Assembly: GCA_013368315.1 (NCBI GenBank)
Contig: JAACJM010000135.1
Location: forward strand, 62,001 to 126,000
Length of the DNA: 64,000 nt
Reading direction: 5' to 3'
From: Tetrapyrgos nigripes
Lineage: Eukaryota > Basidiomycota > Agaricomycetes > Agaricales > Campanellaceae
The translations under genes and the position numbers were made by a program. Position 1 is the first letter of the stretch, and every line of letters begins with the position of its first letter. This document shows positions 20,562-55,617 of this stretch, in pieces. The notes under the pieces were generated by a model. It did no database searches. It was not told the origin of the DNA and saw only the letters and a program-made list of their open reading frames with translations.

Positions 20562-21168
20562 GTGGATGAGGAGCTCGTTTGGAAAGGAGGTAGGAGGTGT
20601 AGGTCAACGAGGTGTAGAATGGATGAGGATGATCCGAAGCTCTTGGACGCGCAATAAATACTCGAAGGCTCACCTGCGATTTTCAAATGCTCAGCACGAC
20701 GCATGAAAACATATCCGTACTGCGGATACGAGTTTCAGGAATCTGGCGTGTGTTTGTGCCTTACACTGCCAGTGTTTCAAGAGATCGAGGAAGTAACAAG
20801 GAAGTAAAATACGAGGACGACCATACGGTCTAGGCCAGCCTGCAACACTGCAATTAGTAGCAGCGTTTAACCAGAGATTGAGGAAAGAGCTTCAAGGGGC
20901 CGGAGACTAGCATAGTATTCAAGGACTCTGGTTGGTTGAAGAAAAAGTTCAATCTCCGCTCAAATTCGACTTATACAAAATTTTGTGCGACTTTGGCTAC
21001 TATCACAGTCAGTGTAGGAAATAAGAATATCATAAGGCATAAGTATGAGTACGCATGTATGTAAGCTTGTAAACTTGTCAGTAACTATCAGTAACTATCA
21101 GTGACTTTGGTAAAATAAATCATAGAGATATACGCGAGGGAACGTCGAAATCCATGGGTGGAAGTACC
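20562..21168. other. intergenic
   Basis: AT-rich sequence without coding potential. It lies between the 5' side of the hypothetical gene and the 3' end of the next minus-strand gene. A short direct repeat CAGTAACTATCAGTAACTATC is seen at about 21080-21100. No other signal is seen. Confidence 0.5.
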
Positions 21169-24100
21169 TCAACACGAACTCGAAACACTACCCATCTCCC
21201 TCTCCAACCTCCTACCAACCTCCCCAACCTGCTCAACCGTCAAACCCGAAACTTCCGAATAAACAGTCGGATGTTCACGTGCACAATGCTCTACCAAGTT
21301 ATCTAAACTTAGTGGGGCTTTGGCGTCGACGGTGAATAGTTTTGAGCCAGTCTTCTTCAACGTCGACCTTGGACAATAACGGCAATAAATTTTCCCCTCC
21401 TCGTCGTCCTGGACAAACATTTGACCTAGATCTGAGAGTTTGAGTTTCATCGACTCTGTTGCGCACAAGTCTGTCTTCTGTTTCCGTGACTCTGAACTAG
21501 AGCCTGAGGGGAATGGTGTACACGTCGTGGTAAATGCCGTGTTCCTGTCTTTGTCTTGAAGGATACGTGATGACGACGATGAGGATGAGGATGAGGATAA
21601 GGACAATTGAGACGAAGATCGCGACAGAGAAGAGGATGGGGATGGTTGTATGGAATTGACGGAATGATGGGCAAGGGGATGGGGAGACCGACAAGCCGTT
21701 GTAGCAGTCGTATTCGACACAGGTGACCTAGCTGGGGTCTTAATAGACATCCCCCAGATATCCACGACGTCAATATGCCTAGATCGCCTCAGATTTTTCA
21801 ATACATCCTTCTTCCCACCACCCGCCTCAATACCCCTCTCGCTACTACCATTCCTCGTGCTCGTTTTCACTTCCATCTTTTCCCTCAACTTAATCAACCG
21901 CCGACGCCGTAGCACATCATACAGAGGGACCTCGACTGACTCGACGGATTCGCAGTCAGAGACTTCCCCCTCCTCAGCTGCCCCTTCCCCTTCTCTTTCT
22001 CCACTTGCTGGTTCTCGTCCCGATTCAGACTCGCACTCAGAGTCGAATTCCAAGTCCATATCGCATTCCCACAAGCCTTCGTCCATTTGATCCACTACAG
22101 CATCAATTTCGACGTCGTCCACATCCACGTCGTTGGCAGTGGCAATGACAATACTAGTACCAGCACCAGCAGCTGCACTAGCACCGTCAATTGGGAGTCG
22201 GCTCAGAAGGGGGCTTGGACCCGAAAAAGTTGTACCTTCCCAGTCGTCTGGAATGGGATCTGGCTCTGGCATAGACATTGGCTTGTCTACCTCAACAATC
22301 TCAACTTCCCGAGAAATCGAAGCCCCAGGTCGTGACGAAGAAGACAAAGACGAAGACGGCCTCGACGACTTTGACTCTGACTCTGACTCCAAGCCTAAGT
22401 CTAAGTCTAACCCGGAACGGGTCCTCTCATCGCCGTCACCGTCACCGTCACAAACTCTCCGCTTCGGCCCAGTCCTATTACCCCTATTACTCCTGTGCAG
22501 ATACTCGGAATAATTGTGATTATCAGGGTCATGGGATAAGGCTTGTATGTCAAAGCCGATGGGGTTAGGTCTGGTGGTGCCAACTCTGACTGTGCTGATA
22601 TCGGCGTTGGAATTGGAAGAGTTAAAGTCGAGGTGGATTGGGGAAGAGAGAGCGTAGATAGAGTGGGGGTTGATACTGGGTTTGGCGGCGTTGGAGTTGG
22701 AAGGACCCGAGGTCGTTGCGTGAGCAGTAGAGTCTGAGTTGAAGAGTAACCGTCTCCCATGTAACATTTGTGACTTAGAGATGTGCAAGGGTGGTGGGGA
22801 TGTATATGGAAAATGTGGATGATGGTCGTTCTGAAGGGAGTAATGTGGGTGAGAAGGATACTGATCTAAGCCACTGGCACCAAGTTGAGACTCAGAGTCA
22901 AACTCCCGAATCATTGAGGTAGACGGTTGTGGATATACAGTGTCTCGGTGGTCGTGGTCGTGGTCCTCCCCTTCTTCAACTGACGACGGTGGTGTAGGAA
23001 GATGCCTCCGCTTCGCGTTTACGTCTTTCTGTACGTCGTATTCGTCCGCACCATCCATATCCATGGCGTCCCCTTCACTTCGATGGCGCTTTAGACCCCT
23101 CATACCCATCTCCATCTCCATTCCCTTTGCTCTCTTCTCCTTTTCCTGGTTCTGTTTCTGTTTCTCCTGTACAGCTTTCGCCCTCGCACGCATCTCATCC
23201 AACTCTACCCTCAATGCTTCCATCTCCCTCTCTCGTTCCCTACTCTCAATAACCCGCTCACGTCGCTCTTTTTGATGAAGAAGCATCATAGCGGAATATT
23301 TTGAACGAAGAGAGGATAGGGAAGAGAGGTCGTGGACGATACGGGAGAAGGTTTGGTCGAAGCAGAAGAGGGGGGAGTGGTTTTCTTGGGCTAGAGATGA
23401 GGATGGGTTAGAGGATGGGCGGGAAGGGGTGTTGGGGTTGGCTTCTGCTGAGGATAAAGATAAAGACGGGTTGTTGCCTTGAGGCGAGCGGGAGGATGAA
23501 GGCGTTTGGTTTGGGTTTGAGTTGGGGTTTGCGTGATTTGGAGAATGAGAAGATGGAAGACCTGGGAGGTGGGGGTACGGTGTTCGAGTTGGAGGTTGAG
23601 ATTGAGGGAACAGTAAACGTAGAGGTGAAGGTGGTGAGGGGCGATGGCGACCACTGGAACCATGTGGAGATAGATGGGGGTAGTAACGTTCAGCGTAGGC
23701 GTGAGCGTATGGATGTGGATGTGAATGGAGATGAGGATGTTGGTGTGGTTGTGGTTGAGGTCGAGGTCGAACGCGACTTTGTACCGGTGGTGGTCGTAGC
23801 TGCGGTCGTGATACTGATACTGGTCGCGACACAGTACCAGTATCGGGATAGTAATAAACTGGACGGGGATGAGGAGCGACCAGCACTGGTGCTACGCGCC
23901 GAGGTGGAGTCATGCTTGCACCGGGGGGAATCTGAGCATGATTTGGGAATGGGGTAATGACGCGTTGCGGTGTATAACCTTGAGCTTGCGCATGAGCATA
24001 AAAGGGTGTAGGCGGTGTCGATGATGAGGGTCTTGGTGTCGTGGATGAAGGCTAGAAGTATGAAGAGTAAATAAACGGACAAAGAAAGATGTAACGATAT

Positions 24101-24490
24101 AAGACACACCATGACAACTCCTTCTGACGTCTGCGCCTGAATGATAGTCTGACTCCCGCTACTATTAGCCTGATTGGGGAGGTTATGATTCACTCGTAGC
24201 TAATAACGGTACACCGAGAGTTAGTACATCATACAGTGATGACGTAGATGCATACGAACAGGAAGAAACTGGGGTTTTCTTGGAAGGGGCTTGATAGGCG
24301 GTCTATTACACGGCACAGTCTTGAACCCGTTGTAGAGCATGGGCATTGTAGAGGAATTGGACGGCAACATCGAGGAAGAGGACTGGGAGTGGCGTATCCA
24401 TCAGACCGACACGTCGAGGACAACAAAGACCAGAGTACTCACAGCTACTGCCCCCTGCCCCTCCATTATCGTGGTAGGCTCACTACTCAT
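21169..24490 (-). CDS. large disordered coiled-coil protein with C-terminal CxxC/HxxxH module
   Basis: By splicing, four exons (24490-24443, 24382-24260, 24199-24110, 24051-21169) give about 1,047 aa; each intron is about 58-60 bases and phase is kept throughout. The start is MSSEPTT. Intron 2 uses a GTTCGT donor, so that junction is the least certain. Layout: a Pro/His/Ser-rich N-terminus with HPHPYAHAYA-type runs; a short coiled coil at about residues 295-365 (heptads in QKERRERVIESRERERE); a long acidic and Ser-rich disordered middle; and a compact C-terminus. That C-terminus holds KIYCRYC, then about 30 residues later LVEHCAREHP, a C2-H2 arrangement suited to zinc, followed by an amphipathic helix. 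The neighbouring gene ends in the same arrangement. A nuclear or chromatin role is possible but is inference only. Confidence 0.72.
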
Positions 24491-25391
24491 CACTATAAGA
24501 TATGGACCAGCCTATACTCGACGGTCTGTAGGCGTAGTCGGGATACAATCAAGAAGTAAGTTGTCAAGCAAAGTGGGGCAAAGCGCCAGCGCTTGGACTT
24601 CCCGTACTTACATAGGTACCGGTGATAAAAAGATGAGAGGCACTTTGACAATAACCCCATCGAATAGCTTCCTGAAAGCGTTCTCTGACTACCTGTTGAG
24701 TAAGGAGTGTGGTAGAAGTGGCATGGTATCGCCATTTGACAATAAGCCAAAGACAATAAAGGGGAGGATCCCATGGGCGATGAAAGACAAAAGAGACAAC
24801 AATACTGAATAAGCGGCGCTGACACGAGGCCGTGTGTCATTTCCTACCCTGCAAAATCGACTCACTCCGCAAGTCCGTCGACTCATTGTAACTCGAGTTT
24901 GGACATACACGAATGGAGATAAGGAACTTTGACTCGATATCATCTCATATTGAGAAAGAGCTCTTCATAACAGAACAAATAGACAGCAATAGTAATGCAA
25001 AAGTGAGATGAAAGCGACACGGAAGAAAATACATGTACACGCAGTCAAGAGTATTGAGTACATATGGGACAGAAGTAGATGAAGACGTAGACCAAAAGAC
25101 CAAGAAAGCGATAGCGTTTAGTATACATTATTAGCATAGCTGCATAATTTCGTTTTACACTGCGGATCAAGTATGTGTTAGTCAAATAATCATATGATCG
25201 TTCAGTAGACGACTCACGAAGATCTTTAGAGGAAACCAGTGAGGAAACCAGTCTATGTATAGAAAGGAGAGAGACGTTGACGGAGACAAGAAAGAAAAAC
25301 GAAAAACGGAGACAAGAAACGACGAAACGCATTTGATACACCAAGAAAAGATACCAGTGAAATTAGAACGAAAAAAAGAAAAATGAGCAAA
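24491..25391. other. intergenic / promoter side of the 21-24 kb gene
   Basis: No supported coding sequence. The region lies between the start of the 21169-24490 gene and the stop of the next gene, both on the minus strand, so it should contain the promoter of one and the terminator of the other. The frames here lack conserved features. The stretch 25250-25380 is purine-rich. Confidence 0.45.
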
Positions 25392-28300
25392 TCACTTCGT
25401 CTGTTTCCTCCTATTCTTCCCCCCTCCCCCCTCACCACCTTTACCCCCACCCACACTAGCACCCCCTGCTGCAGCCCCACCTCCCCCCTGCTTCAACTGA
25501 ACCAACTCGAGTGCAATCTTCGCATGACTATACTTGACAACCTCTTCAACCCTCTCTGAATGTTCATCCCAGGAATGTTTAAACATGTCGGTGAAAGAAG
25601 GAGAGTTGGTTGGGAACGTTTTGGGTTTGGTCATTGTGGTTTTGGAGTGGGTACTGTTTATAGGATGAGGTTGGTTAGCGAAAGAACGAGAAACAAGATC
25701 AAAAGAAAGAAAGGAGGAATTAAGAATACTCACCGACACTCCCGACACACATACTCCCCACCTACAGTATCGTACAACAACTCGATATGACGGAACGCAA
25801 GTTTGTCTTTCGCAGTCCCACTTGCACCACCAGATCCATTGACACTCCCCTTCCCATTGCCAGTCCCTGGAGCAGCAGTGTCACCACTACGACCAGACTC
25901 CTTCGTCGTAGACCCATTAGCCAATCCATTCGCCGTGGCACCGTTGTCAGAAATGGAATTCGCTCGTTCCCTCTCCCGTTCTCTTTCCCTCTGTTCCCTC
26001 TCCATATATTGCTGCGTAATAAATGCCGAAGTCGTAGGCGTATGTGTATTGGGGTAATGATAATACCCAGAGCCGGGTGCAGATACAGGGGGTTTGATAT
26101 TAGAACCCGAACTTGAAGAAGAACCTGGACCAGGCGGCCCCAAATACAAAATGGGTAACGAAGCAGGTGCAGATGCAGGTGTTGGCGCTGGAGCTGGAGG
26201 CGGCGGCGGCGGCGGTGGTTGAGCAGGGTTGGTATTCGGAATAGGCTGCATCGTTTGGTCACGGTAATAAGACCTTGAAGCCGCTGTCGCCAAGTCAGAA
26301 CGGTCAGAACGGTCGTTGGGATTGCGATTTGGGTAAGTATTCGTCGTGGGAGGAAGAGAGTGTTTATAAGGACGCTGATACATGTGCGAGTCGTAGAAGT
26401 TGTGTTGGTTGGGTCGAGAAGCGTTTGCGTTTGCGTTGGATTCTGAGTGAGGAATTAACGGAGAGACGAATGGAGGAGGTTGAGCAGGTGCTGCTGCTAC
26501 TGGTGATGAACCCGAATCCACTCCATAGGGAGGAGGATAGTCATTCATCTCTGCTCTAGATAACGCAGTATCTTCATTCGCGGTCCGTAGCTCTGCCCTT
26601 GGAGACCGATTATTTTCGTGCGTTCTAGCGATTTTGGGTATACGCTCTCGGTCTCTTTCCCTTTCGTCGCCGGTTCCGCCATCCTTCTCCTCAAGTCGAG
26701 CCTTCTCCCTAGATCCAGGTGAAACAATCTCCCCTTCTTCCTCCTCGTCGCCGTCTCGTCCTCCTTCAAATTCAGCCCGACTTCGTTTTCGAGAAGTGTC
26801 AACTTCGCCTTCTTCTACCCTTGTACTGGAAGAGCCGGTGACACCGTTAGGTCGGGCAGTGGAAGACGAAGACGAAGCCTCGGGATAGGCAGGATATTCT
26901 GGAGGTGGACTCTGTGTCGGTAACGGTGGAGGTGACACCGTAGGCGGTGCTGGTGTAGACCCGGAAGCATTCCTACGAGAAATCGACAAACGTTGTCTCT
27001 TGAGGGGACGATAATCGGTAAAGTCGTCTTCAGGCGCAGAAAGGTCTAACGGTGCCGAAGCTGACAATGGTGAAGGCTGAGCGGACGAAGCTCGGTCCCT
27101 AGATTGAGAAGCTTGAGCCAACATTAGCCGGTGGTTGTCGGAATATGATGTAGGTGGAGGTATGGGAATAGACGTTGCTTGTGAAGCTGCCGACATTGGG
27201 ACTGGGGAGTCGGAAACGACTTCGTTGGCTGTCTGGTTATCTTGAACTGAAGCAGATCTGGGCCAAGAACTGTCTTGTACGGCTCTACCGACGACACCCT
27301 GAGACGACAGAAAAAGTCGGTTTAAAAAAAAATCCAGATGAAAAGGTCATGAGTGCACGCACCGATACAGGCTCCCTCAACCTCGCTACTTCCTCTCTCA
27401 AAGCCCTAATCTCCGCTTCCCACCTGTGCCTCTCATCATCTTCCACTTCTCTCGACCCCATACTCCTCTTCAACACTCTCAACTCCTCCTCAACTATCCT
27501 CTTCGCCTCCTCAACCCTCTCTCTCGCCTTCTTCTCCCTTTTACACTCATCCGCCATAATCTCCTTCTTCCCCCTCTGCTTCTCAGCCCTCTCCTCCGCA
27601 TCTTCATACGCCTCCTTCATCGACTTGAGCTGCCCATTCAAATGCTGTATCTCCACATGAAGCGCCTGAACGTTATGCGGCAACAACGGAACCATCCCAC
27701 CACCACCATCTGTTACTTGTCCCCTCATCTGCTTCTCCATTTCCAACTCTGTCTGCAACTGACGATTCCTCTCGTATACAACAGCTAGTTCCTTTTCCCG
27801 CTCTCGTAGGTTTTTCAATGACTGATTGGATAAGGCTACGTGGTCCGCCCGCGCACGTTTCTCGACTTCATCCTTTTCTCTCAACAGCTGGTCGCACTTT
27901 TCCTTCCATCCGCCTTCTCCTTCGGTACCACCAGAAGAACCTGCACCATTACCCATACCCATACCCCCACCTTCCTTCTCATACCTCTTCCTCCACTCCC
28001 ACTCCATCTCCTTCCCATACCTCTCCCTCCACTCCTTCTCATAATACTCCTTCCAAAGCACCTCCCTCTCACTCTCCAACCCACCCATCCCCTTTGAATC
28101 CATAATATCCTTTTCGATATTCGCCACTGTAGTTCTCCAAGCCGTTTCGAGCGCACGTTGAGCGTGACCGAGGACACTTGAGGATATTTGATTGGCTAGA
28201 GAGATGCCGAAACGCGAAGAGATAGTTTGCATGGGCATGATGGAGAGATGGGGTTGGGAGGAGAGTTGGACGACGTGGGGGTTTGGGTTTGGGTTTGAGT

Positions 28301-31300
28301 TACTAGACGTAGACGTAGAGGGCACGCCAACAGGAAAAGACGGTGGTAAATGAGACGGAGGTGGTGGTGCAGGCGAAGAAGGTATAAAATGTGAATGATG
28401 AGGGTCCATTGATATCCTTGCAGGTGCATCGGGCCGTAAAACGGGATACGCAGCTCCCACCGGTCCACCAGGTCCATTTGCACTAGAACCATGAACAGAA
28501 ACGGAACTCGGACCCATCTTTGGTGTATTAGACGCACTAGAAGGTCTCCCAACCCCAACCCCAGTCCCAGTCCCAGACCCAGACCCAGGTGCCGTCACAG
28601 CTCTCATTAACGCAGGTGAAGTAGTACCTGGTCTACCAATGGCTGAAGTGGCGACGATGGCGCCGCCATGAGGATGAGCGTGAGGATGAGGGATAGAAGC
28701 AGCACCGGATCTAGGCGACGTGAACGATATAACCCGTTGCTGCTGCTGGTGCTGTTGGTGTTGAGGATGCTGCACATGAGGATGTGGATGAGGATGTGGA
28801 TGACCAGACGCGTGGACGTGGGCATGGGCATGGGGAGGAGGATGTGGTGGTGGATACCCTTGGACTTGAGCCTGATGAAGGTGAGGATGGGGTAGAGGTA
28901 ACGGAGGAGTCGTCGTATGCGTATGGACAGAAGGGTATTGATTCTGGGGCTGCTGCTGAGGGTATCTGTTGTGTACTTGTCCTTGTACCTGTCCTTGTAC
29001 CTGTCCTTGAGACGGATGTGATTGAGGATGTACCTGTGGAGACCTTAGAGGAACCACCGCCGGCGACGACGACGACGAAGGTTGAGTGTGACTCTGACTC
29101 TCCTTGGCTACCATCTGCGAGACAGTAGTAGGATAGACGTTACCACCAACCACCGTTGTCGCCAACGAGTTCGTCCTAGCACGGCCTTGGCCTTGGAGTT
29201 GAGCTTGGGATTGGAGCTGGGCTTGGGATTGGGACTGGACATGAGTCGTCGGCATCTGCGTCTGCGTATACACCGGTGCTGACGTTGGAGGCTGCTGGTG
29301 TGGGTGTGAGTGTGGGTGTGGATGTGAGTGCGCGTGTAGCTGTGCGTGGGGGTGTGGGGGTGGGTGTAGTTGCGCGTGCCCGTGTGGGTGTTGATGAGAT
29401 GAGACGGGAACGGAAATGGAACCCCGAGATTGAGTCCGAGACTGCGACTGCACCTGGGACTGTGGATGTGGATGTGAAGGTGGGTGTGGGTGTGACGTAG
29501 GCCCAACAGAGTAAGCCTGAGCGTGAGCGATACTATGCCTGCGTTCTCGTTGCTCTCGATCGATGACAACGTGGGTTTGACTTTGACTCTGGCTCTGGCT
29601 TTGGGGATGACTATGACTCTGACTTTGGCTATGAGTCAGAGCGTGACTCTGTCCTTGTCCCTGGCTTTGTCCCTGTCCTTGTCCTTGTCCCTGACCTTGA
29701 CCTTGACCTTGACCTTGACCTTGTACGTGAGCAGCGTAGGCGTTAGCGTTCAAGGAAGGAGGTACGCCTACGCCTACACCGTTACCATTACCATTACGCT
29801 GAACATGTAGTGGCGGCGGCGGCGGCGGGGGTGGTGGCTGTACTTGAGCCTGAGGAGGATTGGGATTGGGATGAGTATGAGTACCATGCTGCGACGACGA
29901 GGTAGAGGCGTGTCCGTGTTGCTGTTGTTGTTGTTGGTGAGGGTGTGTATGTCCATGCGGATGGGATTGGGGTTGGGTTTGTGAATGTACACCAGGCGAA
30001 GGATGGACCTGAGGGGGATCTCGGTGACTCTGTGGCGTGAAAGAGCCGAAACGCCAAGAGGAGATATAGATAGAGATGAAAATTTTTTTTAAAAAAGTCG
30101 GTCAAAAAGAAAAACGAAATCAAAAATCAAAAACCCACCCTTTCTCTTTCCGTATCCCTTCTCGCCGACGGCTGCTGATACCCAACTGGAGGTGAGACCT
30201 CTTTGATAGAGTCCGAGTCTTCGTCGGAAAGAGGACCTGGGCTACGTGGTCTTTCTCTTTCTCTGTCAACACCGGGACTTCCAGGTCCAACGAGTCCTCC
30301 TCTCTCTCTTCGTCCACTTACACCTAACCCTCCTATACCGGAACCCGAACCCGAAGCTGGACCAGTAGTCGTGGTAGTATTCGTAGTCGTATTCGTATTC
30401 GAATCCTCCCCAGACCCAGACGCCGAAGAATACGATGGTATTTGAACGGATAGCCTCTGTTTGTGATGTTGTTGTTTAGGTGGTCCCATACCCATACCCA
30501 TACCCGTGGCCATGGATGGATTGGCTGTAGACGATGAAGGTGAAGGGTTGGGTGATGGGGAACTGGGACTTGGGTTGTTACGAGGACCTCCTCCTTCTCG
30601 TGCGCCCACAACTGCTCCGGCATCTTTTTCCATTTCCGTATCCACTTCTATTCCACGTTCTCTTTCGTCATCTCGTTCTCGTTCCCTTTCTCTTCCTCGT
30701 TCCCGTTCCGTTCCTCTTCCACCATCTCCTTCCCGTTCTTGCTCCTCATCTCCATCGGGTACTCTTTCTCTCTCCATTCTTAGCCGTCTTCTTCTTTCTT
30801 CTTGTTCACGTGTCCCTATCATGGGGTCGGAAATATTAAAAGACGTAAGATTACGAGAACGAGAAGCACCACCACGACCGAGGTTGGAATTAGAACCGGG
30901 ATGATGCCGTTGGTCTTGGTCTTGGTCTTGGTCACGATGGTCAAAAGTCGAAGAAGCCCCTTCTATATCATCCACAGCCATATCAACATCATCCCCATCG
31001 ACATCAGAACGGTTTAGGTTTGGGTTTCGGCTTGAAGGCGTAGGCATAGGGACAGAAATAACGTCGTTCGGAATAGATGTGGGCGTCATTTTCTGATTCT
31101 GATCCTTGGTCTGATGAGGATGAGGATGCGGTGTAGAACCTGAGCCCGAGCTCGAGATTAACGGAGGTAGTGATGAGAGAGGAGGAGGAGAACCAGCTGC
31201 GGATATGGGTGGTGACGCTCTGCTAAATGCTTCTGGTGCTAATATGGGTCTCCCGGGTGGTCCATGTCCAGAAACTGATACTGGTGGTGGTGGTGGTGGC

Positions 31301-34855: not shown

Positions 34856-34951
34856 TTTCTCAAGCTTCCAAGTTGAAGATCATCAAAATCCTCTGCAACC
34901 GTTTCAGATATCGATTTCGACTCGAAATGATCAACCCATAAATATTTCTTA

Positions 34952-36220
34952 CACTGGGTGCAAACACTTGTAAATCCTCTGCTTTACTGAGGTTTTACAA
35001 GAGTATTACACCAAGCCAATCAATATGTAAGACTCCTTGTCATACATTAGTATAACAAGAGACAGAAAAAATTAGAACAACCTTGTATGACCATTGTAAG
35101 TCATAAAGAAATACCATGGACTTTCAGTGTGACTTGCTGTCACTGTATACCCTTGGTGGATATACTGTGGAATTACACAGGAATTTCAGGGTGACTTTTT
35201 GTCACAATATGTCATGTAGTAAGACACATAGGAAATACTGGAGTATTTCAGTGTGACAGATAATCACAGTATGACAAACAGTAAGGCAAGAGAGATTTAC
35301 AAAGGACTTACAAGGAAGCAAAATCTGCAGGAAATTTACAAAGTGACAATCAAGTCACAGTAATACACTTGTAAGACTAGCTGTATTATGAAGGAATTAC
35401 AAGAAAGATTTGCTACAAACACTGGTAAATCCTCAGCCTTACTGGAGTATTACAAGAGTATTATGGGGAACCAATCAATATGTAAGTTGGCTTGACTTAC
35501 AAGTGTATTACAAAATAGACAAAAAATGAGGACTATTCTGAAAGACCATTGTAAGCTGCAAGGACATACCATGGACTTTCAGTGTGAGGCTTTGTCACAG
35601 TATAGCATTGAAGAGCATACAGTGGAATTACAAGGTGACTTTTTTGTCACAGTATGTCTTCTTGTAAAACAGAACTGAAATACCAGGGTATTTCAGTGTG
35701 AGATAATGTCACAGTAAGACAATTTGTAAACCAAGTAAAATTTACAGAGGACTTACCAGAAGGTAGAACTTGAAAGTCTTGGGTAAGACTGCTCATATTT
35801 ACACTGAATTTACGGAGGGACAGCTGTGTCACAGTAATACCCTAGAAAGACTTGTGACTTTACAAGGGAATTACAAGATGCAGGTTTTAAAAGTCTATCT
35901 TGTAAGTCTCTGGAAAAAACCTGCATGCTAAATGGAGAATATACAGTGTGACAGACTGGTCACAGTAAGACACTTGTAAGTCACAAGACATTACAATGAC
36001 TTTACTGAAAAGTGACTATTTTGTAAGTCATCATGTATATCCAATGGACTTACAAGAGACTTGTTGGATGGATTTGCAGTGCATGTCAATTAAGTAATAC
36101 AGAAGGGCTTACTGAAAATTTACAGGATGTAATACAATGAATTCATTCAACCAGGTCAATTAAATGTTACTAAATATAAATAGACAGCTCAGGCTGGACT
36201 GTGTCTCCCTTGTCATCTTC
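34952..36220 (+). repeat. left terminal inverted repeat with palindromic motif series
   Basis: About 1.27 kb, roughly 97% identical by eye to the reverse complement of 41748-42952. Differences include a missing block of about 10 bp in the right copy (near CACAATATGTC). A motif GTGTGAC, 4-6 bases, then GTCACAGTA recurs about every 50-250 bp, near 35130, 35190, 35250, 35350, 35590, 35635, 35695, 35825 and 35945. Short CTTGTAAGTC/TTACAAG words fill the spaces. Subterminal motif arrays of this kind bind the transposase in CACTA elements. The open frame at 35647-35832 is only a by-product of the repeat. Confidence 0.85.
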
Positions 36221-39200
36221 GTCTGCTCAGTCTGTTAGGTCTGCCTCGTCTGCCTCGTCAGCCTCGTCTGCCTCGTCTGCTCCGTCAGCCTCGTCTGCCT
36301 CGTCTGCTCCGTCAGCCTCGTCTGCCTCGTCTGCTCCGTCAGCCTCGTCTGCCTCGTCTGCTCCGTCAGCCTCGTCTGCCTCGTCTGCTCCGTCAGCCTC
36401 GTCTGCCTCGTCTGCTCCGTCAGCCTCGTCTGCCTCGTCTGCTCCGTCAGCCTCCTCTGCCTCGTCTGCTCCGTCAGCCTCCTCTGCCCCGTCTGCTCCG
36501 TCAGCCTCCTCTGCCCCGTCTGCTCCGTCAGCCTCCTCTGCCCCGTCTGCTCCGTCAGCCTCCTCTGCCCCGTCTGCTCCGTCAGCCTCCTCTGCCCCGT
36601 CTGCTCCGTCAGCCTCCTCTGCCCCGTCTGCTCCGTCTGCCTCCTCTGCCTCGTCTGCTCCGTCTGCCTCCTCTGCCCCGTCTGCTCCGTCTGCCTCCTC
36701 TGCCCGTCTGCTCCGTCTGCCTCCTCTGCCTCGTCTGCTCCGTCTGCCTCCTCTGCCTCGTCTGCTCCGTCTGCCTCGTCTGCTCTGTCTGCCTCGTCTG
36801 CTCTGTCTGCCTTGTCTGCCTTGTCTGTCTTGTCTGCCCTGTCTGCCTCGTCTGCCTCGTCTGCTTTGTCTGCTCCTTCTGCTTTGTCTGCTCCGTCTGC
36901 CTTGTCTGCCTTGTCTGCCTTGTCTGCTTTGTCTGCTCCGTCTGCTTTGTCTGCTCTGTCTGCCTCGTCTGCTCCGTCTGCGTCGTCTGCGTCGTCTGCT
37001 CCGTCTGCCTCGTCTGCCTCGTCTGCCGTGTCTGCCTCGTCTGCCGCGTCTGCCTCGTCTGCCGTGTCTGCCTCGTCTGCCGCGTCTGCCTCGTCTGCCG
37101 CGTCTGCCTCGTCTGCCGCGTCTGCCTCGTCTGCCGCGTCTGCCTCGTCTGCCTCGTCTGCCGCGTCTGCCTCGTCTGCCGCGTCTGCCTCGTCTGCCGC
37201 GTCTGCCTCGTCTGCCGTCGTCTGCCGCGTCTGCCTCGTCTGCCGCGTCTGCCTCGTCTGCCGCGTCTGCCTCGTCTGCCGCGTCTGCCTCGTCTGCCGC
37301 GTCTGCCTCGTCTGCCGCGTCTGCCTCGTCTGCCGCGTCTGCCTCGTCTGCCGCGTCTGCCTCGTCTGCCGCGTCTGCCTCGTCTGCCGCGTCTGCCTCG
37401 TCTGCCGCGTCTGCCGCGTCTGCCGCGTCTGCCGCGTCTGCCGCGTCTGCCGCGTCTGCCGCGTCTGCCGCGTCTGCCGCGTCTGCCGCGTCTGCCGCGT
37501 CTGCCGCGTCTGCCGCGTCTGCCTCGTCTGCCGCGTCTGCCGCGTCTGCCGCGTCTGCCGCGTCTGCCTCGTCTGCCGCGTCTGCCGCGTCTGCCGCGTC
37601 TGCCTCGTCTGCCGCGTCTGCCGCGTCTGCCGCGTCTGCCGCGTCTGCCGCGTCTGCCGCGTCTGCCGCGTCTGCCGCGTCTGCCGCGTCTGCCTCGTCT
37701 GCCGCGTCTGCCTCGTCTGCCGCGTCTGCCTCGTCTGCCGCGTCTGCCGCGTCTGCCGCGTCTGCCGCGTCTGCCGCGTCTGCCGCGTCTGCCGCGTCTG
37801 CCGCGTCTGCCGCGTCTGCCGCGTCTGCCTCGTCTGCCGCGTCTGCCGCGTCTGCCGCGTCTGCCTCGTCTGCCGCGTCTGCCGCGTCTGCCGCGTCTGC
37901 CGCGTCTGCCGCGTCTGCCGCGTCTGCCGCGTCTGCCGCGTCTGCCGCGTCTGCCGCGTCTGCCGCGTCTGCCTCGTCTGCCGCGTCTGCCTCGTCTGCT
38001 CCGTCTGACGTCTGCCTTGTCTGTCCCGTCTGCCTGGTCTGCTCCGTCTGCCTCGTCTGCTCCGTCTGCCTTGTCTGCCGCGTCTGCCTTGTCTGCCTTG
38101 TCTGCACCGTCTGCCTTGTCTGCTCCGTCTGCCTCGTCTGCCTCGTCTGCCCCGTCTGCCTTGTCTGCTCCGTCTGCCTCGTCTGCCTCGTTTGCCTCGT
38201 CTGCTCCGTCTGCCTCGTCTGCCTCGTCTGCCTCGTCTGCTCCGCCTGCCTCGTCTGCCTCGTCTGCTCCGCCTGCCTCGTCTGCCTCGTCTGCCTCGGC
38301 TGCCTCGTCTGCCTCGTCTGCCTCGTCTGCTCCGTCTGCCTCGTCTGCTGCGTCTGCTCCGTCTGCCTCGTCTGCCTCGTCTGCTCTGTCTGCCTCGTCT
38401 GCCCTGTCTGCTCCGTCTGCCTCGTCTGCCCCGTCTGCTCCGTCTGCCCCGTCTGCCTTGTCTGCCCCATCTGGTCCGTCTGGCTTGTCTGGCTTGTCTG
38501 CCCCGTCTGCCTTGTCTGCCTTGTCTGCTCCGTCTGCCTCGGATAGACAAGGCAGACGAGGCAGACGGGGCAGACAAGGCAGACGGAGCAGACAAAGCAG
38601 ATGGAGCAGACGAGGCAGATAGGGCAGACAAGGCAGACGGGGCAGACAAGGCAGACAAGGCAGACAAGGCAGACAAGGCAGACAAGGCAGACGGAGCAGA
38701 CAAAGCAGACGGAGCAGACGGAGCAGACAGGGCAGACGAGGCAGACGGGGCAGACGGAGCAGACGAGGCAGACGAGGCAGACGGGGCAGACGAGGCAGAC
38801 GAGGCAGACAGGGCAGACGAGGCAGACGAGGCAGACGAGGCAGACGGAGCAGACGAGGCAGACGGAGCAGACAAGGCAGACGATGCAGACGAGGCAGACG
38901 GAGCAGACGAGGCAGACGGAGCAGACGAGGCAGACGGAGCAGACGAGGCAGACGGAGCAGACAAGGCAGACGATGCAGACGAGGCAGACGAGGCAGACGG
39001 GGTAGACAAGGCAGATGAGGCAGACAGAGCAGACAAGGCAGACGAGGCAGACAGAGCAGACGAGGCAGACGGAGCAGACGGAGCAGATGAGGCAGACGCG
39101 GCAGACGAGGCAGACGGAGCAGACGAGGCAGACGAAGCAGACGGAGCAGACGAGGCAGACGGGGCAGACGAGGCAGACGAGGCAGACGGAGCAGACGAGG

Positions 39201-41747
39201 CAGACGAGGCAGACGGGGCAGACGACGCAGACGGGGCAGACGACGCAGACGGGCAGACGACGCAGACGACGCAGACAGGGCAGACGAGGCAGACGGAGCA
39301 GACGGAGCAGACGAGGCAGACGAGGCAGACGGAGCAGATGGAGCAGACGAGGCAGACGAGGCAGACGGAGCAGACGGAGCAGACAAGGCAGACAAGGCAG
39401 ACGGAGCAGACGGAGCAGACGAGGCAGACAGAGCAGACGGGGCAGACGAGGCAGACGAGGCAGACAGGGCAGACGGGGCAGACGAGGCAGACGAGGCAGA
39501 CAGGGCAGACAAGGCAGATGGAGCAGACAAGGCAGACGGGGCAGACAAAGCAGACAAGGCAGACAAGGCAGACAAGGCAGACGGAGCAGACAAAGCAGAT
39601 GGAGCAGACAAGGCAGACAAGGCAGACAAGGCAGACGGAGCAGACAAGGCAGACGGGGCAGACGAGGCAGACAAAGCAGACCTAACAGACTGAGCAGACA
39701 AAGATGAGGCAGACGAGGCAGACGAGGCAGACGGGGCAGACGAGGCAGACGAGGCAGACGGAGCAGACGAGGCAGACGAGGCAGACGGAGCAGACGAGGC
39801 AGACGAGGCAGACGGAGCAGACGAGGCAGACGAGGCAGACGAGGCAGACGGAGCAGACAAGGCAGACGGAGCAGACAAGGCAGACAAGGCAGACTGAGCA
39901 GACAAGGCAGACGAGGCAGACGGAGCAGACGAGGCAGACGAGGCAGACGGGGCAGACAAGGCAGAGGAGGCAGACGGAGCAGACCAGGCAGACCAGGCAG
40001 ACGAAGCAGACGAGGCAGACGCGGCAGACGAGGCAGACGCGGCAGACGCGGCAGACGCGGCAGACGCGGCAGACGAGGCAGACGCGGCAGACGAGGCAGA
40101 CGCGGCAGACGAGGCAGACGCGGCAGACGAGGCAGACGCGGCAGACGAGGCAGACGAGGCAGACGAGGCAGACGGGGCAGACGAGGCAGACGAGGCAGAC
40201 AGGGCAGACGAGGCAGACGAGGCAGACGGGGCAGACGGGGCAGACGAGGCAGACGAGGCAGACGAGGCAGACGGGGCAGACGAGGCAGACGGGGCAGACG
40301 AGGCAGACGAGGCAGATGGGGCAGACGAGGCAGACGGGGCAGATGGAGGAGACGAGGCAGACGAGGCAGACGGAGCAGATGGAGGAGACGAGGCAGACGA
40401 GGCAGACGGAGCAGACGGAGGAGACGAGGCAGACGAGGCAGACGGAGCAGACGGAGGAGACGAGGCAGACGAGGCAGACGGAGCAGACGGAGCAGACGAG
40501 GCAGACGAGGCAGACGGAGCAGACGGAGGAGACGAGGCAGACGAGGCAGACGGAGCAGACGAGGCAGACGGAGCAGACGGAGCAGACGAGGCAGACAAGG
40601 CAGACAAGGCAGACGAGGCAGACAGGGCAGACAAGGCAGACGAGGCAGACGAGGCAGACAGGGCAGACGAGGCAGACGAGGCAGACAGAGCAGACGAGGC
40701 AGACGAGGCAGACAGAGCAGACGAGGCAGACGAGGCAGACAGAGCAGACGAGGCAGACGAGGCAGACAGAGCAGACAGGGCAGAAGGGGCAGACGAGGCA
40801 GACGAGGCAGACAGGGCAGACAAGGCAGACAAGGCAGACAGGGCAGACAAGGCAGACGAGGCAGACAGGGCAGACAAGGCAGACGAGGCAGACAGGGCAG
40901 ACAAGGCAGACGAGGCAGACAGGGCAGACAAGGCAGACGAGGCAGACAGGGCAGACAAGGCAGACAAGGCAGACAGGGCAGACAAGGCAGACAAGGCAGA
41001 CAGGGCAGACGAGGCAGACGAGGCAGACAGGGCAGACGAGGCAGACGAGGCAGACAGGGCAGACGAGGCAGACGAGGCAGACAGGGCAGACGAGGCAGAC
41101 GAGGCAGACAGGGCAGACGAGGCAGACGAGGCAGACGAGGCAGACGAGGCTGACGGAGCAGACGAGGCAGACGGGGCTGACGGAGCAGACGAGGCAGACG
41201 AGGCTGACGGAGCAGACGAGGCAGACGAGGCTGACGGAGCAGACGAGGCAGACGAGGCTGACGGAGCAGACGAGGCAGACGAGGCTGACGGAGCAGACGA
41301 GGCAGACGAGGCAGATGAGGCTGACGGAGCAGACGAGGCTGACGGAGCAGACGAGGCAGACGAGGCTGACGGCGCAGACGAGGCTGACGAGGCTGACGGC
41401 GCAGACGAGGCTGACGAGGCTGACGGCGCAGACGAGGCTGACGAGGCTGACGAGGCTGACGGCGCAGACGAGGCTGACGAGGCTGACGGCGCAGACGAGG
41501 CTGACGAGGCTGACGGCGCAGACGAGGCTGACGAGGCTGACGGCGCAGACGAGGCTGACGAGGCTGACGGAGCAGACAAGGCAGACAAGGCTGACGGAGC
41601 AGACGAGGCAGACGAGGCAGACGGAGCAGACAAGGCAGACGAGGCAGACGAGGCAGATGGGGCAGACGAGGCAGACAAAGCAGACCTAACAGACTGAGCA
41701 CACAAAGATGAAGCAGACAAGGCAGACGTAACAGACTGAGCAGACAA
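36221..41747. repeat. 5.5-kb strand-switching 9-bp minisatellite
   Basis: Units of the form TCTGCCTCG/TCTGCTCCG/TCTGCCGCG fill 36230-38540. From about 38541 the units read GCAGACGAG/GCAGACGGA, the reverse complement, up to 41747. Blocks of unit variants (CTCCG, CCCCG, CCGCG, CTTG) follow each other, a sign of local unit duplication. The boundary sequence CTAACAGACTGAGCAGAC is present at the left edge (inverted), at the right edge (41685-41735) and once more inside at about 39680-39698. Every frame is nearly free of stops, so open frames of up to about 1,800 codons arise (Arg-Gln-Thr, Asp-Glu-Ala, Gly-Arg-Arg repeats); these mirror unit length and I do not call them genes. Confidence 0.9.
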
Positions 41748-42952
41748 AGATGACAAGGGAGACACAGTCCAGCCTGAGCTGTCTATTTATATTTAGTGAC
41801 ATTTAATTGACCTGGTTGAATGAATTCATTGTATTACATCCTGTAAATTTTCAGTAAGCCCTTCTGTATTACTTAATTGACATGCACTGCAAATCCATCC
41901 AACAAGTCTCTTGTAAGTCCATTGGATATACATGATGACTTACAAAATAGTCACTTTTCAGTAAAGTCATTGTAATGTCTTGTGACTTACAAGTGTCTTA
42001 CTGTGACCAGTCTGTCACACTGTATATTCTCCATTTAGCATGCAGGTTTTTTCCAGAGACTTACGAGATAGACTTTTAAAACCTGGATCTTGTAATTCCC
42101 TTGTAAAACCACAAGTCTTTCTAGGGTATTACTGTGACACACCTGTCCCTCCGTAAATTCAGTGTAAATATGAGCAGTCTTACTCAAGACTTTCAAGTTC
42201 TACCTTCTGGTAAGTCCTCTGTAAATTTTACTTGGTTTACAAATTGTCTTACTGTGACATTATCTCACACTGAAATACCCTGGTATTTCAGTTCTGTTTT
42301 ACAAGAAGACATACTGTGACAAAGCCTCACACTGAAAGTCCATGGTATGTCCTTGCAGCTTACAATGGTCTTTCAGAATAGTCCTCATTTTTTGTCTATT
42401 TGTAATACACTTGTAAGTCAAGCCAACTTACATATTGATTGGTTCCCCATAATACTCTTGTAATACTCCAGTAAGGCTGAGGATTTACCAGTGTTTGTAG
42501 CAAATCTTTCTTGTAATTCCTTCATAATACAGCTAGTCTTACAAGTGTATTACTGTGACTTGATTGTCACTTTGTAAATTTCCTGCAGATTTTGCTTCCT
42601 TGTAAGTTCTTTGTAAATCTCTCTTGCCTTACTGTTTGTCATACTGTGATTATCTGTCACACTGAAATACTCCAGTATTTCTTATGTGTCTTACTACATG
42701 ACAAAAAGTCACTCTGAAATTCCTGTGTAATTCCACAGTATATCCACCAAGGGTATACAGTGACAGCAAGTCACACTGAAAGTCCATGGTATTTCTTTGT
42801 GACTTACAATGGTCATACAAGGTTGTTCTATTTTTTTTCTGTCTCTTGTAATACTAATGTATGACAAGGAGTCTTACATATTGATTGGCTTGGTGTAATA
42901 CTCTTGTACAACCTCAGTAAAGCAGAGGATTTACAAGTGTTTGCACCCAGTG
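41748..42952 (-). repeat. right terminal inverted repeat
   Basis: The reverse complement of the left repeat, beginning at the junction with the array (ATGACAAGGGAGACACAGTCC on the plus strand) and ending at CACCCAGTG followed by the TTA target copy. The series of GTGTGAC/GTCACAGTA half-site pairs is preserved. Scattered substitutions and a 10-bp indel against the left repeat show that the two ends have diverged somewhat since insertion. Confidence 0.85.
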
Positions 42953-42955
42953 TTA

Positions 42956-49984: not shown

Positions 49985-51505
49985 ATGACCAGTTGACGAT
50001 CCGCATCTGCAGACCCGAACCTTCACTGTGCCAACTGACCACACGTATTCCACCCCTCATCATCCCGAGACACCGCCTACTTCGCCGAAAACAGTGACGA
50101 TCCTTGGAGTCCGTGCACCGTACAACCGTGCCTAAACAGATATAACACTCAACGACTTACTGCCGAAGAGATCTCGAGTGGGTTACACGTTATAACCCAA
50201 CTCCAAGAACTTGCAATTCAAAAAGCACACCCAAAACCTAATCCTAAAACTGAATCGAATCAAGGAACCTCTACACCTACCAACCAACCTTCCAAATCTA
50301 ACCCAGTACCAGAAACACCTTCCAACAACCCGCCACAACCAGACAATCCCAACTCCCCTTCTTCGCCCACCATTCCATCTGCCGAAGGACCATCCGTAGC
50401 CCCTCGTCGACCTCCCACACCTCCTTCCCCAAATCCGTCAGATCCAAACAACTCAGTCATGGCTGATACACCCCCTATCGGGTCAAATGGTACTTCTGAA
50501 CGAGGAAGAAAACCCGATGCCTTCAATGGAGAACATAGTGAGGCAAAACGATGGCTGGCCCTGTTTAACAACTATCTACGCATGAATAAAAGCAAGTATC
50601 CTACTGAAGAGAGTCAGGTCTCGTTATTCCTGTCATTCTTTACAGGAGAAAAGGGAGGAGATTGGGCAACGCAGAGATTAATAGAACGAGATGAAGATGA
50701 GGAAGATGAGGAATTGGCGAGCACGCCGGAGAAATGGAGATGGATAACTTTGAAACAGATACGTGATAGGTTCAAAAGAGATTTCAAAGCTCTCACCTCG
50801 GAAGATGTGGCGAGGACGAAGATCAAGTTTGCTAGAATGAAAGGGACGGATATTAGCAGCTACAACAGCATCTTCGATATATACGGAGAAGAGTCCGACT
50901 TCGGAGAAACAGCGCTGTTGGAATTTTATCAGGATGGATTACCACCTAAACTCCAAGAGGCGGTCAGAAGAACGTATCCAAAGTGGGATGACTTCGAGGA
51001 GTACAAGGAAAGAGCTGTGGAGCTCCATTTAGAATGGTTGAAGGAGCGGGAAAGACAAGGACGCTGGAAAACTACTTCAACGTCGAAGAGTAGTCCAGGA
51101 CCGTCTCAGGGAAGGACGGTAGCAAGTGTCAATGCGCTTATGAATATGGGACCAGGTGCTAACTCGTCTTTCACTCCATTACCCAAACTGACACCTGATG
51201 AAAGAGACCGACTCCGAAAACTAGGAGCATGCTTCGTGTGTAGACAAACTGGGCACATGAGCAACAAATGTCCGACATTCCCAAAACCGTCATCTCAAAA
51301 CACTTCCCGAACTTTCTCTCCTCGTGCTGTTTGAACAGCTGAAATCGCGTCTTCACCACCAGTAATGGTAGCCCAGACATGTTCATCTCGAAACACGATC
51401 AAAGATATTTCCGACATGGTTAACAGGGTTAAAGGATTAGAAGGAGAAGAAAAAGAACAAGCAACTGTCTATTTAAAAGACATTATGTCTAAATTGGATT
51501 TTTAA
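49985..51505 (+). pseudogene. gag of the young retrotransposon
   Basis: The frame starts at ATG 49985 (MTS) and runs to TAA 51505. After a Pro/Asn-rich N-terminus comes the capsid-like region of Ty3 gag (HSEAKRWLALFNNYL, then DWATQRLI and FKRDFKALTSEDVA), then a CCHC knuckle CFVCRQTGHMSNKC (about 51230-51271) for RNA binding. Three TGA codons interrupt it: 49994-49996, 50036-50038 and 51332-51334. The uninterrupted block 50459-51334 covers capsid and knuckle. The terminal TAA overlaps a run of five T at which pol continues in the -1 frame. Confidence 0.85.
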
Positions 51506-54500
51506 ATCACTCCTCTGCTACATCGTCAGTAGGAGTAGAACAGTACACCGGACAGTTAAAGAACAATCGATATAGTGTGTTATACCCCTCTAGTGAGCGA
51601 ATCTTTTCTTCAGAGCTAAGAATGTCGGCAACCACTCGTAACTGACAGATACCATCAATCACACTCAAAACTGAATTAATCGGCAAGGTTACTGGCAGAA
51701 AAATCGACGCAAATGCCCTAATAGACAGCGGTGCAGAAGGCATAATCATCAATAGCCGGTTCGCACAAGAAAATCAACTCACCCTTCTTCCTATCAAAAA
51801 ACCGTTCCCAGTACGAAACGTTGACGGCTCCGAAAACACCATGGGATGGGTACGAGAATACACCATTCAAAATCTCCGTATCTATTCTCGAGACAACAGA
51901 TCGTACCACGAGGAGAAGGCCGAGTTCTACGTGATGGACATCAGGGATCACGATATAATCCTTGGTACCGACTGGTTGGAAGAACATAACCCAGACATAG
52001 ATTGGCCAGACTCGCGAATAGGCATGACCAGATGCCCAGAATTGTGTATCATAGCAAATCCCCCCATCCTCCATTTGAAAACTAAAACAAAACCTTTGAA
52101 ATCTACAGTTGTCGACCCAAGAAACCACCACAAAGATTACCAAGTCAAATGGTTGGAACCAATTGGACAATTCAAACCAGTTGCCCAATCAAAAATTGCA
52201 GGGCGACGTTGTCGAATTCCTATTCGATCCTCCCATCGAAGTTCGGAGGTAACGGCGATCTTTACTGAAGACAATTGGGGAAGAGATACGATCCCAGAAC
52301 AATGGGAACAAGACGCAATGGAAGAACTGTTTGGGAATGAAGAAAGAGTAGACAAGGAGACGTCAGAAACACCAAACCTGAACATCCGTGCGGGGTTCAC
52401 AAAGGCACAAGAACTTGCAGAAGCAGCCCAGGACGTCCAGGTCGATATACCTCTTAAAGATAAGATTCCTTCGCAATATCATCAGTTTCTACGAGTCTTT
52501 GACAAACAAACCTCAGAACGATTACCGAAACGTGGGGAATGGGATCATGCTATCAAACTAAAACTGGACTTTGAACCATGCCCCTGCAAAACGTATCCCT
52601 TATCCCCAAATGAACAAGAGGAACTCGATGAATTCATCAAGGAAAACTTAGAAAAGGGATATATAAGACCGTCGAAATCTCCTATGGCGAGTCCTTTCTT
52701 CTTTGTAAAAAAGAAAGACGGAAAACTACGACCAGTACAGGATTATCGCGCCTTAAACAGAGGAACCGTCAAAAACGAATACCCCCTACCGCTCATATCG
52801 GAACTCGTAGACAAACTAAAGGGGGCACAGATGTTTTCCAAAATCGACCTCAGATGGGGATATAACAACGTACGCATCAAGAAGGGGGATGAATGGAAAG
52901 CGGCGTTTAAAACCAACCGCGGTCTCTTCAAACCAACGGTGATGTTCTTCGGTCTTATGAACTCTCCAGCTACATTCCAAGCAATGATGAACACTCTATT
53001 CAAAGACCTGATCGACTCCGGAAAAGTCGTGATTTATATGGACGATATTCTCATATTCACAGAATCACTAGAAGAACATCGATACATGGTAAAACAAGTA
53101 CTTGCACGACTCCAGGATAACGATCTGTATGCTAAACTGGAAAAGTGCACTTTTGAAACCAATTCAGTGGAGTTCCTCGGCCTTATCGTTTCACACAATA
53201 CACTGGCGATGGACCCAGTCAAGGTCGAAGGCGTAACCAAATGGCCAATTCCACGCAATGTCAAAGACGTACAATCATTCCTTGGCTTCAGAAACTTTTA
53301 CCGCTGTTTTATACGAGATTTCTCAAAAATCGCATGACCACTGTTCGATCTCACGAAAAAGGATCACCCATGGAAATGGTCTGATGAAGCCGAAAAAGCT
53401 TTCCGAACACTCAAAGATATGTTCACGACTTCACCAGTCCTCCTCATGCCTGATCATTCTAAACCGTACCGAGTAGAAGTTGATGCGTCAGACTACGCTA
53501 CAGGAGGCATCCTGCAACAACAAGGACCAGACGATAAATGGCATCCAGTAGCCTACCTGTCAAAGGCTCTATCCGAAACTGAACGGAACTACGACATTCA
53601 TGATAAAGAATTGTTAGCGATCATATGCAGACTCGAAGCCTGGCGACACTATCTGGAGGGTGGACCACATACCATCGAAATCTTGACCGATCACGACAAC
53701 CTTAGATACTTCACCACCGCCCAAAAACTTAGCCGACGACAAGCAAGAATGGCCTTGTTCCTGACCAGATTCAATTTTACGCTCATTCACAAACCCGGGA
53801 ACCTGAACCGAAGTGACCCACTCTCTCAGAGATCAGACCATAAAGAGGGGGTCGAGAACGACAACAAAGATAGGGTCTTGCTTGACCCCAGGTTCTTCAG
53901 GATTTGAGCAATGAGGCCAGGAACAGTAACCGCAATGGGAGACACCGAGTTGAAAAGACAGATTAAAGAATGCCCGAAAAGAGATGCCAAAGTCATAAGT
54001 GCGTTACAAACCATCTTTAACAACGGACCACGCGCGTTGGCAAAAAACCTACAGGAATGGAATTACGAAGACGGAGTCATCTTGTTCCGAGGGAAAATCT
54101 ACGTCCCAAACGACCAACAGCTCAGGCGAGACATTGTCAAATTGCATCACGACAGCCTTACTGCAGGACATCTGGGACGATTCAAAACGTACGAACTCAT
54201 CAGTAGAGAATTCTTGTGGCCTGGTATGTCAGTATTCGTTCGTAACTATGTCGAAGGATGCGCTACCTGTCAGTTAACCAAGGCAAATAACCACCCGGCG
54301 CATGTACCACTAATTCCGAATGAGATACCGGAACGACCCTTTGGCACAATTACAACTGACTTCATCACAGATCTGCCAGAGTGTGATGGCTTCAATGCAA
54401 TTCATGTCACAGTCAATCGTTCAACAAAAACGGTTGTCATTTCTCCATGCAGAAAGGATATCGATAGCGACGGAACAATTGACCTATTATTCGACAATAC

Positions 54501-55617
54501 TTGGCGATGATACGGCCTGTGGGACAAAATGATATCTGACCGCGGACCTCAATTCGCAAGCCAAGTGATGAAAGGAATATACGCTAAGTTAGGTATAACT
54601 TCGGCACTCAGTACAGCTTATCATCCACAAACAGATGGCGAGACAGAAAGGTTCAATCAGGAACTCGAACAGTACCTTCGAACCTTCTGCAACTATCGCC
54701 AAGACGATTGGGTTAAATACCTACCTTACGCTGAATTTTGCCACAATACACGAGTCCATTCAGCAACTGGGAAATCGCCGTTCGAACTTCTCCATGGATA
54801 TCTACCCCGACTCTTCCCTACCATCAATCCGACTTCACACGTACCAAAAGTCGAGAAATGCCTTCAGAACTTGGACATACTTTGAGAAGAACTCAAAGCA
54901 AGTCTGTCGACAGCGGCGGAAATAATGAAGGAACAAAACAAGGACCATGCGAGTGAAGGAGTGAGATTTAGTGTCGGAGACAAGGTGCTACTAGACGGGA
55001 AAAATCTGAAGACAACGAGGCCAAAAGCTAAGTTGGCAAATCGCCATCACGGCCCATTCGAAGTCACTGACGTAATCAGTAAAGTCAACTACCGACTCAA
55101 ATTACCGAATACCTGGCGCATTCATCCAGTTTTCCATGCCTCACTCCTATTGCCGTATAAAGAAACCGAAGCTCATGGAGTGAACTGCCTGGGAGAACCA
55201 GCTGAATTACTTCCCGAAGACAATGAATACGATGTGGAAGCAATTCTAGATTCAAAACCAACAAGGAACCATTGGGGAGTACAATACCTTGTCAAATGGT
55301 TAGACTATGCTGACTCAGAGAATTTGTGGGAACCAGCATCAGGATTGACAAAGGTGAAAGATATGATCGAAACCTTCCATCGACAACACCCAAATGCGTA
55401 CCGACCAAAAAACCTGATACAACCAGGAATGACAGTGTGTTCACTGGGAATCACCATAGGAGATATATGGCAAAGTACTCGTGTGCTCCAAGCAAAAGCA
55501 CAACTCCGAGGAGGAACGTTGTCACGAATCGCCGGTATTCTATGCCCTCCTTCCCACCCCACTTGGCAACGGAATTCAGAATTCTGTCATCATTCATCAA
55601 TTGCATTCCCTTGTTAA
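51506..55617 (+). pseudogene. pol of the young retrotransposon (PR-RT-RH-IN-chromodomain)
   Basis: A single frame, -1 relative to gag, holds: aspartic protease (ALIDSGAEG near 51720), reverse transcriptase with YMDD at 53035-53046, RNase H (VDASDYATGG near 53480, LTDHDNLRYF near 53685), the integrase HHCC finger (LHHDSLTAGH ... GCATCQ, 54140-54275), the DDE core (TTDFITDLP, ISDRGPQFAS, DGETERFNQEL), a GPF/Y-like region and a chromodomain (VQYLVKWLDYADSENLWEP, about 55280-55340). Chromodomains steer integration to particular histone marks. Five premature TGA codons lie at 51643, 53335, 53905, 54508 and 54883; all sit where arginine is expected. Ends at TAA 55617. Confidence 0.93.

Follow-up and report, generated by a model that had tools for sequence, protein, structure and literature searches.

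The stretch of DNA analysed here, called the window throughout, is 64,000 nucleotides of the basidiomycete Tetrapyrgos nigripes (contig JAACJM010000135.1, positions 62,001 to 126,000; contig C132 in the genome searches), and it carries an 8-kb palindromic element at window positions 34952-42952. As shown in Table 1, the element has CACTG...CAGTG termini with TTA directly outside each, and it opens with CACTGGGTGCAAACACTTGTAAA and closes with the reverse complement of the same sequence. Between its terminal inverted repeats (TIRs; about 1.27 kb on the left and 1.20 kb on the right) lies a 5.5-kb core of 9-bp units, which run as TCTGCCTCG on the + strand in the left arm and as the reverse complement in the right arm. 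A preliminary description of this DNA, made from the letters alone, had reported CACTG-ended termini, TTA duplications, inverted repeats of about 1.2 kb and the 5.5-kb core, which all held almost base for base, and the strand switch it had put at about 38540 was located at 38541-38545 by Tandem Repeats Finder.

Table 1. Parts of the palindromic element in the window and the basis on which each was placed.
Feature	Window position	Strand	Basis
Left target site duplication, TTA	34949..34951	.	sequence; second TTA at 42953-42955
Left TIR (flanking domain), 5' CACTGGGTGCAAACACTTGTAAA	34952..36218	+	sequence, arm alignment, genome matches
TATA-like TATAAATAG just outside array, speculative promoter	36175..36183	+	read from sequence; mirrored at 41783-41791
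Left minisatellite arm, 9-bp units TCTGCCTCG and variants, nearly A-free	36219..38541	+	Tandem Repeats Finder, composition, spacing
Strand switch, palindrome centre where the arms meet	38542..38544	.	Tandem Repeats Finder rows stop at 38541 and resume at 38545
Right minisatellite arm, 9-bp unit as reverse complement, nearly T-free	38545..41753	-	Tandem Repeats Finder, composition, spacing
Right TIR, reading inward on the - strand	41754..42952	-	sequence, arm alignment
Right target site duplication, TTA	42953..42955	.	sequence

Alignment of the left and right TIRs showed identity at 635/654 and 601/611 positions (97% and 98%); the first piece contained a 10-bp gap, and between the pieces the right arm was a net 52 bp shorter. 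The subterminal motif CTTGTAA occurred 14 times in the TIR, on both strands, while in 300 shuffles it averaged 0.42 and never exceeded 3. The left array contained 17 A over the 2303 bp counted and the right array 44 T over 3136 bp, and the spacing of successive units was exactly 9 bp in 210 of 232 cases in the left array and in 305 of 325 in the right. The TATA-like TATAAATAG stood about 30-35 bp outside each array. Scans of the window for tRNA genes and Rfam families (gathering thresholds) gave no matches.

Such a palindrome might also be an inverted duplication made during assembly or a foldback read artefact. Foldback artefacts in long reads do exist (PMC12870357), and contig C546, which has the same left flank, reaches only 2.26 kb past the TIR and is too short for the whole element. 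However, the two window TIRs differed at 16 of 1227 positions besides the gaps, the arms were unequal in length and repeat pattern, and matching duplications bounded the unit here and in 14 other pairs, which makes an artefact extremely improbable. C546 was rejected as a second allele, as all six of its non-array differences were small indels (five of one base), like those of an unpolished redundant contig. When the joined flanks were searched against the assembly, no empty site for the window insertion was found: apart from the two flanks at the locus itself, the matches were the left flank on C546, a sequence on C159 that is 69% like the left flank, and a weak one of 56 bases elsewhere on C132.

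The genome search covered the 98.5-Mb assembly of 587 contigs. The TIR gave 561 candidates, and all 40 that were scored, the window's own included, were near full-length (1245-1266 of 1266 bases) and 98-100% identical; four additional matches were 79-bp inner pieces. The 38-bp end of the window subfamily was found 87 times forward and 91 times reverse (178 ends; control 0 + 0), and its outer 22 bp, with at most two mismatches, 287 and 293 times (580 ends; pattern-read-backwards control 0 + 0). Among the first 100 listed exact 38-bp ends, adjacent ends faced each other in 33 pairs; 30 pairs spanned 0.8-15.6 kb, with a median of 5.0 kb, and the other three 18.4, 23.9 and 28.4 kb. The median TIR divergence was 1.16% within an element and 1.63% between elements. 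With 178 ends, matching 3-bp duplications and different flanks, these results bore out the earlier suggestion of a mobile element.

Many of the 22-bp ends formed pairs less than 300 bp apart, and four such miniature inverted-repeat transposable elements (MITEs) were fetched. They were 169-279 bp long, 79-93% self-complementary without gaps, and had the family ends, with matching 3-bp flanking duplications in 4/4. An empty site of the family was provided by a MITE that lies within another copy's TIR and is flanked by ACA at either end; the window TIR is the uninterrupted version, one base apart. The preliminary description would have been abandoned if neither a second copy nor an empty site had turned up anywhere; both did.

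We then compared the sequences next to the paired ends. The flanking triplets were identical in 15 of the 16 pairs compared, with 12 different triplets. Four further pairs gave two matches (C28, TTA/TTA; C96, TGT/TGT) and two mismatches (the 18.4-kb pair on C31 and L038), or 17/20 overall. The PIF/Harbinger superfamily targets TTA or TAA, while the CACTA/EnSpm (CMC) superfamily has inverted CACTA/CACTG termini and short subterminal repeats. A non-autonomous PIF/Harbinger element would account for the TTA on both sides of the window copy, and three of the 15 matching pairs had TTA and one TAA; the other 11, for example AAA, AAG, CTG, CCA, AGT and CTC, ruled out membership of Harbinger, to which we assign almost no likelihood. 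The TTA duplication is thus real for the window copy and is not the target of the family, and of the CACTA and Harbinger types with which the element had first been compared, the non-specific duplications decided for CACTA.

The family agreed with CACTA/EnSpm in its CACTGGGTGC...GCACCCAGTG termini (580 ends), in 3-bp duplications without a fixed sequence and in CTTGTAA as a subterminal repeat, and it agreed with the foldback class in having long inverted arms whose tandem-repeat domain makes up most of the element. We assigned it to CACTA/EnSpm and not to Harbinger because of the non-specific 3-bp duplications and the CACTG ends. Fungal EnSpm elements are likewise described with CAC..GTG ends and 3-bp duplications (PMC12730594). 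Plavaka was rejected, since its termini are 5'-CATCA or 5'-TGT (PMC12730594) and those found here are CACTG, and so was a Mutator-like foldback of the Tm1 type, which has 9-bp duplications (PMC3169594) whereas this family has 3-bp duplications and CACTG ends. Taken together, the window element is very probably a fungal CACTA/EnSpm-type foldback transposon that is non-autonomous and is moved by an inferred transposase.

The arrays of other family members were organized in the same way. A TCTGCC-inward array started at the inner end of the TIR in 30/30 TIR loci (the best 30 of 40 scored, including the window itself, L002, and its second contig, L001). Ten copies were examined through the array, that at C31 63077-73524 only nearly through, and in 8/10 the opposite arms met at most 20 bp apart. 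The left and right arms measured 2329/3182 bp in the window and 405/549, 2019/379, 236/1842, 1173/1763 and 1040/668 bp in others, and the switch could lie anywhere between a place close to the left TIR (as in L037) and one close to the right TIR (as in L036). In the C31 copy the strand switched three times, at two of these points across two 480-bp pieces in inverted orientation, and the right end of L048 was an exception to the inward polarity. An exact array 27-mer gave 799 matches in the genome; the first 100 formed 11 clusters, of which 8 lay between paired ends and 3 next to a single end, with the family end and TIR match of the cluster on C5 taken from the 22-bp end list and a separate TIR match. 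Mirror-image minisatellites were thus confined, among the matches listed, to places in or beside the members of one transposon family.

Several observations weigh against the foldback CACTA reading. The flanking triplets disagreed at C188 112986-122169, and the two further unmatched pairs were TCA/ATA (C31, 18.4 kb) and TCC/TCT (L038, an 8-bp copy). At least one arm was closer to another element than to its own partner in 11 of 15 copies (L048 set aside). The reversed array 27-mer, used as a control, still gave 25 matches. L048 had lost its right array and the inner right TIR, yet its CAT/CAT duplication matched, so mirror symmetry is not required for persistence. Moreover, the two arms of one element shared only 0-11% of their 45-mers in 6 of the 8 copies with long enough arms; sharing was 42-43% in L036 and the C31 copy and up to 45% between arms of different elements. 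Since sharing between own arms was mostly low and did not exceed the level between elements, arm-to-arm copying is not general, and the arms appear to evolve mostly independently, with some such copying. Finally, family membership is proven for no transposase.

A sister subfamily was represented by the copy at C18 569439-573320 (L038), which had identical 22-bp ends but another TIR, in which each arm contained about four repeats of 171 bp. Its core consisted of 8-bp units (TGCCCTTG, TGCCCTCG) with a strand switch near locus position 2615. Units of 8 bp were also found inside an L038-like TIR at three more loci, with a visible switch in L063 and L065 and as a short stretch only in L064. Both the 9-bp TCTGCCTCG and the 8-bp TGCCCTCG were C/T-rich on the inward strand and switched at the centre. 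The occurrence of mirror-image arrays with two different units is an argument for the central array being a recurrent product of this palindrome family.

Transposase domains were abundant in the whole genome, which gave at least 173 KDZ (Kyakuja-Dileera-Zisupton), at least 163 Plavaka and 117 Tnp2-type (Transposase_21) matches. KDZ, CxC2 and Plavaka domains, all present here, are typical of basidiomycetes. The 23.9-kb pair on C96 (TGT/TGT) spanned a Transposase_21 match with a 541-aa frame; by our estimate, length alone would place about 0.3 Tnp2 matches in the 33 listed pairs. Matches with the identical score were present on C27 (where no exact end is listed closer than 70 kb), C107 (absent from the 38-bp end list) and C341 (beyond the list), so the C96 gene may be a nested neighbour.

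On C79 the TIR was followed by about 300 bp of array and then by two frames reading inward, one of 391 aa and one of 572 aa, the latter with Transposase_21 (E 2e-11). There the array frame enters the Tnp2-type gene, which could mean that the array arose by expansion of the 5' end of a transposase gene belonging to the family. However, an open frame through the array means little, because several frames through such arrays stayed open over hundreds of codons, the longest in the window reaching 1824. In addition, two relatives of the gene on C86 (84-92% alike) had a different 5' end, and the 1.7-2.1 kb fetched upstream of them contained no array and no TIR. An origin of the array in a transposase gene is therefore improbable, and the C79 Tnp2 gene, at first convincing as the autonomous partner, was weakened by the same upstream sequences of the C86 relatives.

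In C131, C194 and C27 a palindromic module of 2.7-2.9 kb interrupted the array, whose polarity was the same before and after it. The C131 and C194 modules were 97% alike in opposite orientation, and that of C27 was about 80% like both. Their ends resembled those of a KDZ transposon interrupting the array on C31. Modules with KDZ-like ends were seen nested in arrays in both orientations at L066, L067, L024, L025, L041 and L043-L044 (C131, C194, C188, C48, C27 and C31). A module search gave 212 candidates, of which 40 were scored. Up to contig C204, the range that the 38-bp end list covers, 13 places reached at least 95%, three of them as partial matches. Family ends, taken from that list and from the TIR search, lay no more than 7 kb away from nine of these places (five of the nine being inside a facing pair); the other four had no listed end on their contig. 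The closeness of modules to family ends would reflect either array-targeted insertion or joint spread.

The KDZ gene on C31 raised the question of whether a KDZ transposase mobilises the family, as CxC2 and KDZ domains were found in L044, between the C31 ends at 20956 and 39320. However, this KDZ unit had its own ends inside the array, and its 3' end recurred at three other places (two with an identical flank) with no array beside it. KDZ matches in the genome numbered at least 173, and the reported duplications are 7 bp for Kyakuja and 8 bp for Zisupton (PMC12730594) against 3 bp in the window family. KDZ as the mobilising enzyme was ruled out as a nested insertion and is very improbable in this role; the nested modules explain the long copies and do not thereby make KDZ the mobilising enzyme.

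For the CACTA-type foldback, we propose that a CACTA transposase, presumed to act in trans, would recognise the CACTGGGTGCAAACACTTGTAA ends and the many CTTGTAA subterminal repeats of each arm, and that cut-and-paste movement would leave the 3-bp duplications. In each arm the 9-bp minisatellite forms the tandem-repeat domain, and the array runs inward from both ends because it is part of an inverted arm. In most copies examined nothing remains between the arms, so that the arrays meet head-on and the 'strand switch' is their meeting point. Judging from arm lengths, shared repeats and junctions, each array may grow and shrink largely alone, by slippage, unequal exchange or arm-to-arm repair copying. 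It is possible, though doubtful, that the centre of a mobile palindrome itself generates minisatellites, with hairpin-tip slippage or post-excision gap repair adding units at each move, and that the arrays then become landing pads for a second palindromic (KDZ-type) element. As a guess from the sequence, convergent transcription might start from the TATA-like TATAAATAG beside the arrays; if true, it could feed RNA silencing. The preliminary description had put forward small-RNA silencing and, alternatively, a structural or fragile-site role as possible functions.

The preliminary description had not recognised this structure, but foldback elements are a known kind with repeat-bearing inverted arms: FB, Galileo, Tetris and Tm1 have long inverted arms holding tandem repeats (PMC4079207, PMC3573991, PMC3169594). 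Like the window family, Drosophila FB and root-knot nematode Tm1 are mostly non-autonomous and variable in length, with inverted arms of repeat modules forming most of the element (PMC3169594, PMC2955051), and Tm1 also has composite arms and short MITE-like members (PMC3169594). Unlike in FB and Tm1 as there described, the centre of the window element is taken up by short-unit arrays, and the strand changes where 3 bp separate the arms. Galileo, of the P superfamily, has TIRs of about 0.3-1.26 kb whose tandem repeat number differs between ends, as here; its TIRs extend by copying inner sequence, with 210-bp arm repeats in one subfamily (PMC3573991). The short MITE DAIBAM has the same ends as Tetris, whose 220-bp tandem repeats also form arrays of kilobase size (PMC4079207). 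The units of Galileo and Tetris are thus about 210-220 bp against 8-9 bp here, in another superfamily and another kingdom. Chenopodium Jozin (CACTA/EnSpm) resembles the window family in its subterminal repeats and inner satellite array, captured in Jozin, but this satellite, as described, lies near the 3' end and does not form mirror-image arms (PMC8978399). Among the papers listed by a literature search, mostly without subscription papers, there was no CACTA-type or fungal foldback with minisatellite arms. The general foldback architecture is already known; compared with the foldbacks above, the CACTA-type ends, fungal host, 8-9-bp unit, kilobase arms 3 bp apart and two array types in one terminal family look new.

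These results point to a foldback architecture with CACTA-type ends in a fungus, carrying large mirror-image minisatellites. With 178 ends, one genome offers about 90 natural replicates for the birth of minisatellites and the survival of 3-15-kb palindromes through replication. Repeat annotation may label such arrays 'satellite' and miss their mobility.

The longest listed pair, C28 503445-531846 (L045-L047; 28.4 kb, TTA/TTA), was not read as one simple element, because gypsy-like fragments and another family end, inserted in a gypsy-like pol frame, lay within it. Inside it there were also a frame with a T5orf172/MUG113 domain (L046 3490-3975) and, near L047 2300-4900, a long tandem array of another repeat with frames repeating QQMLLPAQAETHS; a frame resembling that of L046, at L057 2792-3229, had no Pfam match. 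Elsewhere in the window, a protein encoded at 58509-59333 had seven relatives, positions 19749-31089 contained five minus-strand frames in a row for low-complexity proteins rich in Ser, Pro, His or Gln, and 50459-55617 contained Ty3/gypsy-like pieces with gag-, reverse transcriptase- and chromodomain-like frames, as judged by reading the translations.

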